From the NCBI RefSeq assembly GCF_006519715.1, contig NZ_VIDT01000008.1:1-32739 (forward strand): a stretch of 32,739 nt of DNA, read 5' to 3'. Numbering within the stretch: the first letter of the stretch is position 1; each line of letters opens with the position of its first letter. The stretch comes from Ideonella azotifigens (lineage in GTDB: Bacteria; Pseudomonadota; Gammaproteobacteria; Burkholderiales; Burkholderiaceae_C). Shown here in pieces: positions 1,661 through 8,530 of this stretch. The translations under genes were made by a program, and so were the position numbers. The notes beneath the pieces are model-generated. The model was not told the origin of the DNA. It did not search any database and saw nothing but the letters and a program-made list of their open reading frames with translations.

Positions 1661-2319
1661 AGCGGCGCGAATTGTTGAAGCACGGTGGGCTTGCCGCGAT
1701 GGCCGCCACCGGACTGATGGTCGGGCAGGGCGCCCAGGCCGACAGCTACAGCGACTTTTTCCTCTACATCGAGCTGGATCGACCGGAGGGCCTGCAAAAG
1801 CTGCTGCGCGCCGGTTTCGACGTCAATTCCCGCAACCCCAAGGGCCAGCACGGCTTGTACATGGCCTTCCGCAACGATTCGGAAAAGGCTGCCGAGCTGC
1901 TGCTGGGCTGGCCTGGTCTCGACCCTGAGGGCACCAATGCCCAGGGCGAAACCCTGCTGATGATGGCCGCGATGAAGGGCCAGATCGACGCGATGAAAAA
2001 ACTGATCGCGCTGGGTGCTGCCGTGAACCGCAAAGGCTGGACGCCGCTGCACTACGCTGCTTCGGGCGGGCAACAGGCCGCCATCATCCTGCTGCTCAGC
2101 CATGGCGCCGAGCTGGAAGCCCGCGGGCCGAATGGCAACACGCCGCTGATGATGGCCGCGGGCTACGGCACGATAGACAGTGCCAGGCTGCTGCTGAGCC
2201 GTGGCGCCGACCCGAAACTGGTGGATGGGGGCGACCGCCACGCCAGCGACTACGCACGCAAGGCCGGCCACGAAGGCTTGGCCAAGGACCTCGAAGCGCT
2301 GGCGGCGAAGCCAGGCTGA
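1657..2319 (+). CDS. Exported ankyrin-repeat protein
   Basis: The 220-residue product starts at an ATGA overlap with tatD. It opens with a signal sequence of about 28 residues: KRRELLKHGG, then a hydrophobic Ala/Met/Gly stretch, then GAQA before the mature part. The paired arginines followed by ELLK resemble a twin-arginine (Tat) signal, though the match is loose. The rest consists of about five ankyrin repeats, the clearest being GWTPLHYAASGGQQAAIILLLSHGAEL and GNTPLMMAAGYGTIDSARLLLSRGADP. Ankyrin repeats mediate protein-protein contact and have no catalytic role here. The place of action is probably the periplasm. The binding partner is unknown. Ankyrin genes after tatD are frequent in Burkholderiales, so the gene is likely conserved. 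Confidence 0.85.
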   Translation: MKRRELLKHGGLAAMAATGLMVGQGAQADSYSDFFLYIELDRPEGLQKLLRAGFDVNSRNPKGQHGLYMAFRNDSEKAAELLLGWPGLDPEGTNAQGETLLMMAAMKGQIDAMKKLIALGAAVNRKGWTPLHYAASGGQQAAIILLLSHGAELEARGPNGNTPLMMAAGYGTIDSARLLLSRGADPKLVDGGDRHASDYARKAGHEGLAKDLEALAAKPG

Positions 2320-2383
2320 GCCTGCGAAAACTGGCGGCGCTCGGGTCCTTTCCTCACCCCCGCCGCCCGGCGCCGCTGACACC

Positions 2384-2441
2384 CTTGTCAGATGAATACC
2401 GACAGAGGCTTTGTCGGCGCTCCGACTTATGTCCTGACAAG
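2384..2441. repeat. Nested inverted repeats upstream of the small ORF
   Basis: Two dyads share nearly the same centre. The outer arms are CTTGTCAG (2384-2391) and CTGACAAG (2434-2441), a perfect 8-bp pair. Inside lies CCGACAGA (2399-2406) and TTTGTCGG (2410-2417), which can form an 8-bp stem with one G-T wobble and a 3-base loop. A TACAGT hexamer at 2450-2455 could be a -10 element for the downstream ORF. The structure could be an operator or an RNA fold; its function is unknown. Confidence 0.5.
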
Positions 2442-2502
2442 CGTCGCCCTACAGTGCGTTCCATGGGTTCCACACCGGAGCCCGCCTAGAGAGCCCACCA
2501 CC

Positions 2503-2727
2503 ATGCGCGACATCCAGAGCCTGAGCAACCCGTTCATGATGATGACCGACCCGGAAGTCATCCTCCAGGCCATCGAACGTTCAGACCGCCTGAACCGCCT
2601 GCAACGCCGCGTGTGCCGCCCGCTGGACCGTCCGCTGATCCCGAAGATTGGCGGCGTGGCCGACTTCGACGCAGAGATCGACCACGAACCCGACATGGAA
2701 CTGAGCGACGAATTCCTGGCTGACTGA
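2503..2727 (+). CDS. Small conserved-looking hypothetical protein (74 aa)
   Basis: The ORF begins MRDIQSLSNPFMMMTDPE, contains an Arg-rich middle (ERSDRLNRLQRRVCRPLD) and ends in an acidic tail. It has no signal peptide, no membrane segment and no enzyme motif. A longer frame starts at 2392, but the segment before residue MRD reads like noncoding sequence, so I chose the ATG at 2503. A purine stretch near 2488-2493 is the only candidate ribosome site. Codon use is similar to neighbouring genes, with mostly G or C in the third position. Small proteins of this general look occur in Burkholderiales, but I cannot name a family, and no function is assigned. Confidence 0.6.
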   Translation: MRDIQSLSNPFMMMTDPEVILQAIERSDRLNRLQRRVCRPLDRPLIPKIGGVADFDAEIDHEPDMELSDEFLAD

Positions 2728-2825
2728 CAGCCCACGGCTCGCAGCCCCGGCTGCAGCACGAAACGAACGGACGGACTGGTGGCGTCCGGCTGGCCTGAAC
2801 CGCCGCACAGCGACAGGCTGCCACC

Positions 2826-2848
2826 GTTGGCAAGCAAGTGCTGCCAAC
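2826..2848 (-). terminator. Hairpin after the SOS short ORF
   Basis: GTTGGCA (2826-2832) and TGCCAAC (2842-2848) form a 7-bp stem with a 9-base loop. On the minus strand it begins about 15 bases after the stop of the 28-codon ORF. There is no run of T after it, so it may be an mRNA 3' structure and not a true intrinsic terminator. Confidence 0.35.
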
Positions 2849-2863
2849 GATCACCAATGGCGA

Positions 2864-2950
2864 CTACAGCCATCCCCAAAGCAGGTAAGCCAGGCGCGTC
2901 AAGCGAATGGAACGTGCGGGGCGGTAGTTCTCGCGGTAGTGGGTTTGCAT
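2864..2950 (-). CDS. Putative LexA-controlled microprotein (28 aa)
   Basis: On the minus strand an ATG at 2950 opens a 28-codon frame ending with TAG at 2864. The peptide begins MQTHYRENYRPARSIRL and ends LTRLAYLLWGWL. It is strongly basic (five Arg, one Glu), rich in aromatics (three Tyr, two Trp), and has a short hydrophobic C-terminal half that could form a membrane-active amphipathic helix. The third codon position is mostly G/C, as in nearby genes. A CAGG sequence lies eight bases before the ATG. A strong promoter with an overlapping LexA box sits immediately upstream. I do not recognise a family. By size, charge and SOS control it recalls the E. coli TisB toxin, but the resemblance is general and no homology is claimed. 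Confidence 0.5.
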   Translation of the reverse strand: MQTHYRENYRPARSIRLTRLAYLLWGWL

Positions 2951-2963
2951 GGTGAATGCCTGA

Positions 2964-2983
2964 TACTGTATGTTCATACAGTA
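2964..2983. promoter_or_regulatory. LexA (SOS) box
   Basis: TACTGTATGTTCATACAGTA is a near-perfect 20-bp palindrome matching the proteobacterial LexA operator CTGT-N8-ACAG, including the flanking TA and TA. It overlaps the -10 hexamer and the predicted start site of the leftward promoter at 2980-3008, which is the geometry expected for repression by LexA. The nearest gene in the direction of that promoter is the 28-codon ORF starting at 2950. Confidence 0.85.
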
Positions 2984-3008
2984 TCCGCATCGCTGCTCAC
3001 CGAGTCAA
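2980..3008 (-). promoter_or_regulatory. Sigma-70 promoter, leftward, under the LexA box
   Basis: On the minus strand TTGACT (3008-3003) and GATACT (2985-2980) are separated by exactly 17 bases, a strong promoter for this genome. The predicted start is near 2973, giving an untranslated leader of about 22 bases before the ATG at 2950. A rightward promoter over the same box is much weaker (TTGCAT and TGTATG). Confidence 0.7.
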
Positions 3009-3232
3009 GCAAGACTGTCCATCTCGAAGGTTGGAGGCCAGCCCGCCCGACCAGCCGCACCAGCACCTTCGGCAACTTGCGGCCAGACCGGCAGCCTTGC
3101 CGCGAGGCAACGGCCATGAATACGCGACAATGTATATTATGTCAAATAAAGCAGAACCTTCGATTCATTGGATGTCGCGTGGCTCATGGGGAAAGTTTCC
3201 ACCCACCGAAGGCATCTGACCTTGCGACCTGC

Positions 3233-4000
3233 TCAGCGCACCACGCCAAAGTACTGAATCAACGCGCGCGCCTGATCGACCTCTGTGGCCAGGCGCTGGG
3301 TGCGGCGCCGTGAGCCTTCGGTGGTGATCAGGATGTGGTCGCTCAGGCTGATGCGCCCACCAGGAATGGCCTTGGAGCAGATGATCTTGCGGCTGAAGTG
3401 CGACGCGGGCGAGCTCTGGTGGAAGCGGCACATGGCTTCGAAGGCCGCCAGTGGCTGCGGCTGCAAAGACAGCAGGAACACCGGCCTGGGCTTGGGCGCC
3501 GCGACTTCGCTCGAATCGGTGGCGCGCATCAGCAGCAGGTTTTCGCCCTCCGGCTGTAGGTGGTAGACGTCCTTGCCCTGCCGGTGCGTGTCGGTGCTGC
3601 CAATGCGCAGCGGCTGCATGTACGAGTCGCCAAAGCCGACATCAACCAGGTAGCGCGAACCGTCCAGCGTCACCTGCAATGCCATGTGGTCGAAAGCCGG
3701 CCCGGGCTTGCCGTCTGCGCCATGCACCTGGGCAGACAGGAACACCACCTCGAAGCCCAGTGCCTGCAGCAGCCAGCCGAACAAGCCGTTCAGCTCGTAG
3801 CAGATGCCGCCGCGCCGGCGCTCGACAATCTTGTCGTACTGGCCTTCCGGGTCCAGGTGCAGCGGCGGGCCGCCGTGGATGTCCAGGTTCTCGAAAGGCA
3901 CTGCCAACAGATGGGCGAGTTGCAGGCCGGCCAGCGTTTCCAGGTTCAGCTCAAGCGGACCGGTGTAGCCGAACCGCGCCAAGTACTTCTCTTTGTTCAT
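3233..4000 (-). CDS. nat: Arylamine N-acetyltransferase
   Basis: This 255-residue protein shows the complete NAT catalytic triad: Cys67 in RRRGGICYELNGLFGWLL, His105 in FDHMALQV and Asp120 in YLVDVGFGD. The PFENLDIH motif at 35-42 is also typical. The enzyme transfers the acetyl group of acetyl-CoA to arylamines, arylhydroxylamines or hydrazines through a Cys thioester, in the cytoplasm. The length is slightly short of the usual 270-280 residues, mainly in the C-terminal domain. The ATG at 4000 follows an AGGGTGA stretch that can serve as ribosome site. A terminator lies between it and the upstream SDR gene, so it is probably transcribed separately. The physiological substrate is not evident. 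Confidence 0.93.
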   Translation of the reverse strand: MNKEKYLARFGYTGPLELNLETLAGLQLAHLLAVPFENLDIHGGPPLHLDPEGQYDKIVERRRGGICYELNGLFGWLLQALGFEVVFLSAQVHGADGKPGPAFDHMALQVTLDGSRYLVDVGFGDSYMQPLRIGSTDTHRQGKDVYHLQPEGENLLLMRATDSSEVAAPKPRPVFLLSLQPQPLAAFEAMCRFHQSSPASHFSRKIICSKAIPGGRISLSDHILITTEGSRRRTQRLATEVDQARALIQYFGVVR

Positions 4001-5985: not shown

Positions 5986-6954
5986 GTGAAAGACCTGATC
6001 GCCCTGCTGTTGCAACACGGCGTATTGCTGGTGTTCCTGGTCACGCTGGCCGCGCGTGCCGGTGCGCCTTTTCCGGCGGCGCCGCTGCTGGTGGTGGCGG
6101 GCGGCCTATCGGCGGGCGGGCTCCTCTCCAGCAGCGGCACGGTGATGGCCTCGCTGCTGGCCAACTTGGCGGGCGATGCGGTGTGGTTCTGGGGCGGCCA
6201 GCGTTTTGGCCACCGCGTGATGCGGCTGCTGTGCCGCATCTCGCTGTCGCCTGACTCCTGCGTGCGCCAGAGCGAATCGCTGATCACGCGTTGGGGCGGC
6301 GCTTCGCTGGTGGCCGCCAAATTCGTGCCGGGCATCTCGGTGGTGGCAGCACCCATGGCTGGCGCGCTGCACATGTCCTGGCGCCGCTTCCTGGCTTACG
6401 ACGCGCTGGCCGGGCTGTTGTGGACGGGGCTGTTCTTCGGCATTGGTCGGGTCTTCAGCAGCCAGATCGAGCAGATCCTCGGTGTGCTGGCCAACACCGG
6501 CATGTACGCGCTGGGTTTGCTGGCGGTGCTGCTGGCCGCCGCGGTGGCGCTGCGCTACTGGCGCCGCCGCCGCTTCCTGTTGAACCTGGACATGCCGCGC
6601 ATCAGCGTCGAAGAGTTGCTGGAACTGATGGCGCAGGAGCAGCCACCGCTGATCGTGGACGTGCGCTCGGCCGGCAGCCAGGCGGCAGACCGCCGACGCA
6701 TCCCGGGTGCCATGCGCATTGCGCTGCCGGACCTGGCCGAACACGCACCACGCCTGCCGCGCGACCGCGACATCGTGCTGTATTGCAACTGCCCGAACGA
6801 CGTGTCCGCCGCGCTCGGCGCACGCACGCTGAGCAGCCATGGCCACACCCGCGCCCGGCCGCTGATCGGCGGCATCAACGCCTGGGAAGCCGCCGGTGCA
6901 GACCTGGCCGCACATGACGATGGGGATCAGGCCATGGTGATGGCACCGTCCTGA
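5986..6954 (+). CDS. DedA family membrane protein fused to a rhodanese domain
   Basis: The 322-residue product joins two domains. Residues 1-200 form a DedA/SNARE-associated (VTT) membrane domain with several hydrophobic helices and the characteristic AKFVPGISVVAAPMAG segment at 111-126. A basic YWRRRR stretch (191-196) ends the membrane part. Residues 205-310 form a rhodanese domain with the active-site loop VLYCNCPN; Cys267 is the presumed sulfur acceptor. DedA proteins are linked to membrane lipid (undecaprenyl phosphate or phospholipid) transport and proton homeostasis. Rhodanese domains carry persulfide sulfur. GTG at 5986 is chosen as start because it begins the membrane domain directly; the ribosome site is weak and an in-frame ATG at 5920 is possible. 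Confidence 0.88.
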   Translation: MKDLIALLLQHGVLLVFLVTLAARAGAPFPAAPLLVVAGGLSAGGLLSSSGTVMASLLANLAGDAVWFWGGQRFGHRVMRLLCRISLSPDSCVRQSESLITRWGGASLVAAKFVPGISVVAAPMAGALHMSWRRFLAYDALAGLLWTGLFFGIGRVFSSQIEQILGVLANTGMYALGLLAVLLAAAVALRYWRRRRFLLNLDMPRISVEELLELMAQEQPPLIVDVRSAGSQAADRRRIPGAMRIALPDLAEHAPRLPRDRDIVLYCNCPNDVSAALGARTLSSHGHTRARPLIGGINAWEAAGADLAAHDDGDQAMVMAPS

Positions 6955-7026
6955 AGACACCAGGCCCAGGTGAACGCCGACGAGCCCGCGCGCGTTAGCA
7001 TCGTTTGTTCCGCACCAAGGTCCGCC

Positions 7027-7533
7027 ATGCAGTCGATGCTTCCCCTCTCGTCGCCCTCCTCCCGCCGCAGTCTCCTCGCCGGTTTCGCCGCCTCGGCACT
7101 GGCCGCGGCAACACTGCTGAGCGGCTGCGCCGGCATGGGCAAGCTGGAGAAGATCAAGGTGACGGTGGCCAGCGTAGAGAGCCTGGGTGTGCATGGGCTG
7201 GAAGCGCGCTTCGTGGTGAAGCTGCGGGTGCAGAACCCGAACGACATCTCGCTGGACTACGACGGCCTGGCCGTGGACATGGAACTGAACGGCAAGCCGC
7301 TGGCCAGTGGCGTGAGCAACGACAAGGGCACGCTGCCGCGCTTTGGTGAAACCGTCGTCACGCTGCCGCTCACAGTCTCCACCGTGGCGCTGCTGCGCCA
7401 GGCCAGCGAACTCGTCCGCGACAAGGGCGGCCAGAAGGAAGTGCCGTACCTGATCAAGGGCAAGATCGGCGGTGGTCTGTTCGGCACGGTGGAGTTCCAC
7501 CAGGCGGGCGTGCTGGCCATTCCGCGGCTGTAG
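7027..7533 (+). CDS. LEA type 2 family lipoprotein
   Basis: The 168-residue protein has a signal peptide with a clear lipobox, LLSGC, with Cys34 as the predicted lipidated residue. The SSRRSLLAGF start contains paired arginines and could be a Tat-type signal. The mature part is a WHy/LEA14-like beta-sandwich, recognisable from VESLGVHGLEARFVVKLRVQNPNDISLDYDGLAVDMELNG. Members of this family in bacteria are small, probably periplasmic or outer-membrane anchored, and of unknown function beyond a suggested stress role. The ATG at 7027 follows AAGG within ribosome-site distance. A TAGCAT hexamer at 6996-7001 may be the -10 element. Confidence 0.85.
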   Translation: MQSMLPLSSPSSRRSLLAGFAASALAAATLLSGCAGMGKLEKIKVTVASVESLGVHGLEARFVVKLRVQNPNDISLDYDGLAVDMELNGKPLASGVSNDKGTLPRFGETVVTLPLTVSTVALLRQASELVRDKGGQKEVPYLIKGKIGGGLFGTVEFHQAGVLAIPRL

Positions 7534-7588
7534 GCCCGCAAAGCCGTCCTGACCCTTCCGGGAGATGGTGTTTCGGGCGGCGGCGCAG

Positions 7589-7594
7589 CAAAAT
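7589..7594 (+). promoter_or_regulatory. -10-like element of the pirin gene, possibly leaderless
   Basis: CAAAAT lies exactly six bases before the ATG at 7601, with no ribosome site in between. The same spacing occurs at pilZ, the hydrolase gene and clpS. No good -35 is visible. Confidence 0.3.
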
Positions 7595-7600
7595 CGGGCG

Positions 7601-8530
7601 ATGCAAAGCCCTGCCACGCCCCACGAAGCGCCCCACTCCTCGCCCCTGCTGCTCACGGGTCACACCAAGGACCTGGGTGGCGGTTTCACCGTCAGCCGCC
7701 TGCTGCCTTCGGCCAAGCGCCAAGCCGTCGGCCCGTTCCTGTTCTTTGACCACTTCGGTCCGGTGCAGGTGGTGCCCGAGAGCCGGCATGACGTGGGGCC
7801 GCATCCGCACATCGGCCTGGCCACAGTGACCTACCTGTTCGAGGGGGCGATGATGCACCGCGACAGCATTGGCTCGGTGCAACGCATCGAGCCGGGTGCG
7901 ATCAACTGGATGAGCGCCGGCCGCGGCATCGTGCATTCCGAGCGCCGCCCGGAAGACCTGGCGCAGGCGACCTACATGAACCACGGCCTGCAGTTGTGGG
8001 CCGCGCTGCCGGCGGCGCACGAAGAAAGCGAGCCAGCGTTTTCGCACACAGCCGCTTCGGAACTGCCCGAGCACACGCTGCCCGGCGGCCACAAGCTGCG
8101 GGTGTTGATCGGCAAGGCGCTGGGCTTTGAATCGCCGGTGCAGACCTTGAGCGAAACGCTTTACCTGGACCTGCAACTGGCGCCCGGCGTCGAATTCACA
8201 CTGCCAGCGCTCGCGGAGGAACGTGCGGTCTACCCGGTTTCCGAGCCGCTGTTGCTGGATGGCCAAACGGTCGAACCGCGCACGTTGGCCGTGTTGCCCG
8301 CCGGCCAGCCGGTGAAGCTGGCCGGCACGACCGGCCAGGCGCAGCGCGTCATGGTGATCGGCGGCGCGCCGCTGGACGGCCACCGGCTGATCTGGTGGAA
8401 CTTCGTGTCCACGCAGCGCGAACGCATTGTCACGGCTGGCGAGGTCTGGGCGGCGGGCGGCATCGGCCACGTGCCGGGCGATGACGAAGGCCGGCTCGTG
8501 TTGCCAACGAACCGGCCGCTGCCAGCCTGA
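7601..8530 (+). CDS. Pirin family protein
   Basis: The 309-residue protein is a bicupin of the pirin family. The N-terminal cupin carries the metal-binding set His68 and His70 (HPHIGLATVTYLFEG), His112 and Glu114 (GIVHSERRP). The FLFFDHFGP segment is typical. The second cupin (about 180-300) lacks metal ligands, as usual. Bacterial pirins can act as quercetin dioxygenases or as regulators of metabolism; which applies here is unknown. I take the ATG at 7601 as the start because residues before it in the longer frame from 7565 look noncoding. The gene converges with acnA, and a strong hairpin separates the two. Confidence 0.9.
   Translation: MQSPATPHEAPHSSPLLLTGHTKDLGGGFTVSRLLPSAKRQAVGPFLFFDHFGPVQVVPESRHDVGPHPHIGLATVTYLFEGAMMHRDSIGSVQRIEPGAINWMSAGRGIVHSERRPEDLAQATYMNHGLQLWAALPAAHEESEPAFSHTAASELPEHTLPGGHKLRVLIGKALGFESPVQTLSETLYLDLQLAPGVEFTLPALAEERAVYPVSEPLLLDGQTVEPRTLAVLPAGQPVKLAGTTGQAQRVMVIGGAPLDGHRLIWWNFVSTQRERIVTAGEVWAAGGIGHVPGDDEGRLVLPTNRPLPA

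Follow-up and report, generated by a model that had tools for sequence, protein, structure and literature searches.

A LexA operator over the promoter of a 28-codon reading frame

The window, that is, the whole 32,739-nucleotide stretch of Ideonella azotifigens DNA that was analysed, contains on its reverse strand a 28-codon reading frame for the peptide MQTHYRENYRPARSIRLTRLAYLLWGWL, behind a perfect LexA-type palindrome that reads TACTGTATGAACATACAGTA in the leftward direction (Table 1). An earlier note on this DNA had placed the palindrome over the -10 element of a leftward TTGACT-N17-GATACT promoter, and had described the frame as opening with the ATG at 2950, containing five Arg and being preceded by CAGG. 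We found each of these elements in the sequence. The hexamers, 17 nt apart, are the sole promoter-like match on either strand of 2700-3250 (shuffle mean 0.1). The ATG at 2950 is the first one after the predicted transcript start, about 22 nt downstream of it, and the frame ends with TAG at 2866-2864; an additional in-frame ATG at 2977 lies within the operator and upstream of the predicted start. A damage-induced rightward transcript was one of the outcomes by which the note's proposal would be refuted; no promoter for such a transcript was found on the plus strand of 2700-3250, in a search that weak promoters could escape, and positions 2300-3400 had no Rfam match. The genes on both sides, one for an arylamine N-acetyltransferase and one a 74-aa ORF that matched no family, agree with the note's statement that no known SOS gene is adjacent. 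A stem-loop lies between the peptide stop and the convergent gene; the 81-nt stretch that contains it folds better than shuffled sequences (z -2.33), and no match to an intrinsic terminator was found after the stop.

Table 1. Features of the peptide locus and of related loci
Feature	Position	Strand	Basis or remark
74-aa ORF without family match	2503-2727	+	neighbour of the peptide gene
Stem-loop directly after the peptide stop, without U-tract	2820..2854	-	may mark where the transcript ends
Reading frame of the 28-aa SOS peptide, including stop codon	2864..2950	-	68-locus family, purifying selection, LexA box linkage
Putative ribosome-binding site CAGG	2959..2962	-	sequence
LexA operator, perfect 20-bp palindrome	2964..2983	.	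the genome has two such perfect CTGTAT-N4-ATACAG sites
-10 element GATACT, overlapping the LexA operator	2980..2985	-	similar overlap in many relatives
-35 element TTGACT	3003..3008	-	only promoter-like match in 2700-3250
Arylamine N-acetyltransferase (PF00797)	3233-4000	-	neighbour of the peptide gene
Radical-SAM genes behind LexA-type boxes, window's own genome	L001:294-1499; L003:202-1479		PA0069 family; TIGR03916, putative DNA modification/repair
Companion protein, examples	L126:3132-3338; also L107, L091, L096		

The core pattern CTGT-N8-ACAG is weak evidence by itself within the window, where it occurs once and where 31 of 100 shuffles had at least one. The perfect form CTGTAT-N4-ATACAG occurs only twice in the genome of 6,257,981 bases, and allowing one mismatch adds three more sites, while the reversed control pattern has none in the whole genome. 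The other four sites precede lexA, ruvB and the two radical-SAM genes. Because of these counts and the identities of the adjoining genes, we consider the operator to be among the best in the genome and not accounted for by a neighbour. In four genomes of the window's genus, LexA boxes precede integron-integrase-like ORFs (L196, L199, L212 and L216), and in G003 a perfect box precedes a glyoxalase-like ORF (L205:401-816); both kinds of ORF were named by eye.

A family of small peptides behind LexA-type boxes

We searched 60 relatives with a single sequence, the 37-aa extended frame, as the query. One match had a convincing context: in G015, a genome of the same genus, a frame with 38% identity (E 0.00255) starts 16 nt after a LexA box of its own, and the box had played no part in the search. 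A profile of these two sequences gave many weak matches in 399 genomes of the same taxonomic family, and the 30 best were fetched; 20 were clear members, and ten were false and had no box. With a 16-sequence profile, we found 67 places in 64 of the 399 genomes and 31 of the 141 genera, and adding G015 brought the set to 68 loci in 65 genomes. The 64 genomes are a lower bound because only 20 candidates per genome were scored. The window peptide itself has an E value of 1.5e-12 with the A2 profile, which includes it, and has the R-x-x-Y-x-P motif and the C-terminal W-x-W-[LF]-stop of the family behind a LexA box. When named records were scanned with a narrow pattern, 22 loci came up, comprising one unrelated protein and 21 peptides, all 21 with a LexA box and 12 apparently on contigs already among the 68 loci; these members come from Rhizobacter, Piscinibacter, Rubrivivax, Ideonella and Azohydromonas as well as from higher-level bins. 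Samples drawn more widely, with 300 genomes from the order and 299 from the phylum, gave only two weak matches outside the taxonomic family, both without a LexA box as far as the sequence reaches. A tiny ORF from another family of the order (G514, L134:77-187; MRQHYTPKPAPIPRWAVVVLECLIGLALGALIGFSL) contains RQHYTPKPxPxPRW followed by a membrane-like segment, and is either a chance likeness or a distant cousin; the sequence upstream of it, 76 nt in all, contains no LexA box.

The earlier note had raised the question of whether a LexA box always precedes the peptide in relatives, and it nearly always does. A lenient LexA-type box is present within 250 nt upstream at 63 of the 68 loci (within 100 nt at 58), and a strict one at 49. 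Background windows from the same loci had a lenient box in 5 of 737 cases and a strict box in 1 of 737, and a second background gave 3 of 1744. None of 27 matches that had been set aside has a box. For 15 of them the E-value was the sole reason; another 10 were excluded after their sequence and flanks had been seen, which makes the comparison partly circular, and 2 came from the wider samples, one of these being L134 with its 76 nt of upstream sequence. In four of the five loci that lack a box the companion gene described below comes first, and the fifth locus is that of G338. Tandem boxes 16-22 nt apart are present at 19 of the 68 loci. We also started from the boxes, choosing 31 LexA boxes in the genus and reading the sequence downstream of each without using a protein search. 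Behind three of them, at a distance of 36 nt, stands MKYQYCDFYS[AV]KPHR..EWLRRLMLWF, a divergent variant not picked up by the profile. Counting both the profile and the box-first scan, at least 6 of 16 genomes of the window's genus have the peptide.

The reading frame is conserved as a protein. In the seven closest independent pairs (protein identity of at least 96%), we counted 26 changes at 142 synonymous sites and 4 changes at 455 non-synonymous sites, a non-synonymous to synonymous ratio near 0.05. The ratio is 0.33 when all 19 independent pairs are taken together, with synonymous sites partly saturated in the distant pairs. This large excess of synonymous change in close pairs indicates that the frame is under purifying selection. 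The family consensus is M-x(3-12)-[LYF]-R-Q-x-Y-R-P-x-P-x-R-[VL]-P-x-W-L-R-R-[LIV]-W-x-W-[LF]-stop, with an arginine-rich front. The conserved part extends as far as the stop codon. Counted back from it in 61 distinct peptides, 60 have tryptophan at -2, 57 have it at -4 and 57 at -9, and 60 have proline at -11. The window peptide is the sole one without this core proline and one of four without the first tryptophan. A frame broken behind a retained box, which the earlier note had named as an outcome that would refute its proposal, was seen in a single case: in Piscinibacter aquaticus (L119:3001-3123), the box and most of the peptide are kept, and the last codons are frame-shifted into an unrelated tail, which may reflect decay or a sequencing error.

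GC-rich DNA has many short ORFs, and the CTGT-N8-ACAG core is no rarity by itself, so that the frame in the window could have arisen by chance behind a LexA box that controls some other transcript. We rejected this explanation as scarcely credible in view of the size of the family (68 loci with conserved residues), the purifying selection and the linkage to the box. Hence, judging from the sequence comparisons, the gene almost certainly exists and is under LexA control, and 2950-2864 on the minus strand is, with strong support, a member of a family of SOS microproteins of roughly 26-36 aa. Searches of Pfam, NCBIfam, PHROGs, PADLOC and PDB sequences gave nothing better than E 0.1 (a few matches had E values of 0.13-0.28), and we did not find the family in the literature, as covered by open-licence papers. 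The interpretation in the earlier note is thus supported in part: its proposal of an undescribed LexA-controlled microprotein has strong support from the conserved frame, the box linkage, the selection and the lack of a name in the libraries, and its suggestion of a membrane-active effector like TisB or DinQ is a conjecture.

A second small protein at peptide loci

At 16 of the 68 loci, the operon of the peptide contains a companion ORF of about 64-75 codons with the consensus ..EGVxRYVWESRFGxMLIEVxDGxAYVNGQxVEP. It lies upstream of the peptide in 7 loci, with a stop/start overlap of 1 or 4 nt in 6 of them, and downstream in 9, with gaps of 40-209 nt. The companion was found in 38 of 398 genomes, and the window's genome lacks it. 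A LexA-type box is present within 330 nt upstream at 26 of 30 fetched companion loci. Two further divergent peptides were seen at companion loci (G354 and G290). Some genomes have several copies of the peptide gene: G105 has three (L096, L100 and L103), each with a companion upstream, and G270 has two (L079 and L091), one of them with a companion. The structural model of the companion is a small four-stranded sheet (pLDDT 67), for which Foldseek returned a best E value of 0.95, and its sequence had no match in Pfam, none in NCBIfam above the cut-off and none among PDB sequences below E 0.1. From its sequence and its boxes, the companion is apparently a second uncharacterised, SOS-controlled protein family.

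These observations raise the question of whether the peptide and the companion of about 68 aa form a two-component SOS module, in which the companion would act, for example, as an adaptor, antidote or chaperone and would be absent or unlinked in many genomes. Besides sharing an operon in those 16 loci, the two genes occur together more often than expected, with the peptide in 64 genomes, the companion in 38 and both in 23 (Fisher p about 3e-11, kinship ignored). This table combines the 399-genome peptide search with the 398-genome companion search, and G290 and G354, which do bear a peptide, are entered in it as genomes without one. Moreover, at 14 companion loci no peptide lies nearby, and at 12 of these the companion has its own LexA box. 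Against an obligate pairing, 41 peptide genomes, including that of the window, have no detected companion, so the peptide can presumably act alone, and we consider a two-component module somewhat unlikely.

Apart from the companion, no neighbouring gene was seen in more than four genomes, except for a cluster of opposite-strand frames that overlies the companion in 9 of 11 genomes. We therefore rejected the possibility that the frame is a regulatory leader of a downstream gene: there is no conserved neighbour but the companion, and the next gene in the window is convergent. A phage or plasmid origin was rejected as well, since tblastn gave no match for the peptide in plasmid and phage collections or for the companion in plasmids, within the limited sensitivity of such short queries. 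Viral contigs gave no match.

Possible roles of the peptide and known SOS peptides

The AlphaFold2 model of a 34-aa member has a helix at residues 25-33 (block pLDDT 81-86 there), and the remainder is open. Over the last 11 residues, the mean helical hydrophobic moment in the family is 0.56 at 100 degrees, modestly above shuffled sequences (mean z 1.35), and 0.18-0.21 at 160-180 degrees; the helical moment is lower, 0.41, in the window peptide. The mean net charge of the family is near +5, a value slightly inflated by one mis-started sequence (L100). As the predicted helix has only about 9 residues and contains Arg in most members, it is probably not a transmembrane helix of the TisB or DinQ kind, and a single hydrophobic membrane-spanning helix was not recognised in the sequences. 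Helix and moment together suit a docking motif or a short helix lying on a surface, not a transmembrane span, and a surface-bound helix is possible.

We propose the following mechanism. In the undamaged cell, LexA would cover the -10 element and keep the gene silent, and at the loci with tandem boxes the two sites would cover more of the promoter. Upon damage, RecA filaments would cause cleavage of LexA, the short leader would be transcribed and the peptide would be made. By comparison of the loci, the minimal unit consists of one or more LexA boxes over the promoter and the peptide gene, to which the companion is added in some operons. The [LYF]RQxYRP front and the amphipathic Trp/Arg helix (PxWLRRxWxWL-stop) would place the peptide at the inner membrane, on its cytoplasmic side, with the near-invariant residues in contact with a protein target, and its most probable role would be to restrain division or growth during DNA repair, as SidA, YneA or SulA do elsewhere. 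We favour a protein partner because of the near-invariant single residues and the membrane surface because of the Trp/Arg helix. We looked for SulA in 30 peptide-bearing genomes and found none, and the two matches over the cut-off were ImuA. The known roles of SOS peptides of this size, the failure to find SulA, the conserved residues and the helix together lead us to favour a brake on growth or division at the inner face of the inner membrane. As a whole, this is our best explanation, a tentative one with slightly less than an even chance; docking at a membrane surface or protein is, taken separately, nearly as probable as not, and the restraint of division or growth, which we suggest by analogy, is plausible at a somewhat lower level. 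The peptide is unlikely to be a universal division inhibitor of the clade because it was detected in only 64 of the 399 genomes, which is an undercount.

Alternatively, the peptide could be an SOS toxin that depolarises the membrane in the manner of TisB or DinQ; as a cationic Trp/Arg peptide, it would disturb the inner membrane and slow down metabolism. Its LexA control, small size, positive charge and Trp-rich C-terminus are consistent with this, and the tandem boxes suggest tight repression, as expected for a toxic product. However, there is no membrane-spanning stretch, neither an opposite-strand promoter nor an RNA family was found near the gene, and the conservation of residues over many genera suggests a specific partner and not bulk disruption of the membrane. 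We regard a depolarising toxin as unlikely.

A more specific version of a division block would be mimicry of the FtsZ tail, with the core [VLAT]-P-x-W-L-R-R competing for partners of the FtsA, ZipA or MinC type and blocking the Z-ring after damage. The FtsZ tails of 29 peptide-bearing genomes end with ..EIEIPAFLRKQAD or close variants (EIPAFLRKQAD in the same genomes), and all 7 places of VPAWLRR and IPAFLRK are either identical or conservatively replaced. On an 8-column peptide profile, the tails IPAFLRRQ and IPAFLRKQ rank 74 and 99 among 580,546 sequence windows from all six frames of long ORFs in the analysed loci, and about 18 of those ranking above them are the family peptides themselves. 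However, about one sequence window in 6,000-8,000 scores as well, in a comparison that was picked after the likeness had been seen, and the variant IPAYLRKQ ranks only 772. The acidic residues that flank the FtsZ motif are absent from the peptide, FtsZ has nothing that corresponds to the C-terminal W-x-W-[LF], and both the P and the first W are missing from the copy in the window. The likeness to the FtsZ tail is suggestive and by itself not significant, and we consider such mimicry improbable. A still bolder and even less probable version is a new SOS checkpoint, in which the peptide would copy the FtsZ tail, anchor at the membrane and strip FtsZ of its tethers, and the companion would tune or end the arrest. 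If true, this checkpoint would be the missing SOS division brake for part of a bacterial family in which SulA was not found.

SOS-induced peptides can decide between halted division, dormancy and death of damaged cells; to our knowledge few are known, and most of these come from model species. The present family can be read by its operator across dozens of genera, and it brings with it a second, apparently SOS-controlled protein family in the companion. Ideonella paludis, Rhizobacter sp. Root404 and Azohydromonas caseinilytica offer cultured handles on growth restraint where SulA is not detected. SulA (PF03846), SosA and YneA resemble the family in SOS control and in their possible role and are larger proteins; a Pfam scan of five family peptides, covering the SulA domain, gave no family at E <= 10. 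FtsA-type amphipathic membrane anchors likewise have a short amphipathic C-terminal helix, and the conserved C-terminal peptide of FtsZ shares the P-x-aromatic-L-R-R core, a likeness of a few residues with no homology shown.

The closest parallels are tiny LexA-controlled peptides. TisB is similar in size to the window peptide, and both TisB and DinQ, SOS peptides of E. coli type I toxin-antitoxin systems, are alike in their LexA control. DinQ, whose gene has two operators, has 27 aa and is described as a single transmembrane peptide that disturbs the membrane and is controlled by an antisense RNA and a processed leader (PMC3567139). In contrast, the window peptide has a predicted leader of about 22 nt and is rich in Arg and Trp, and no antisense RNA was found. 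Predicted LexA targets named hypA and hypB were reported for beta-Proteobacteria with several chromosomes in a comparative study of 2012 (PMC3323433); they resemble the genes described here as uncharacterised genes of the same bacterial class under predicted LexA control. A survey of missed genes from 2010 took ORFs of at least 99 bp (PMC3098052), which is longer than most genes of the peptide family. SidA of Caulobacter crescentus, a LexA-controlled division inhibitor of 29 aa, shares with the family its size, its LexA control and its organisation as a single tiny ORF. According to its description, SidA is an inner-membrane protein that acts on FtsW (PMC4211646), and it is set apart by this description from the peptide family, which has no transmembrane stretch. 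SOS-induced microproteins are thus already known, and the peptides described here appear, by the searches made, to be a new family that is unrelated to the known ones and has its own operon partner.
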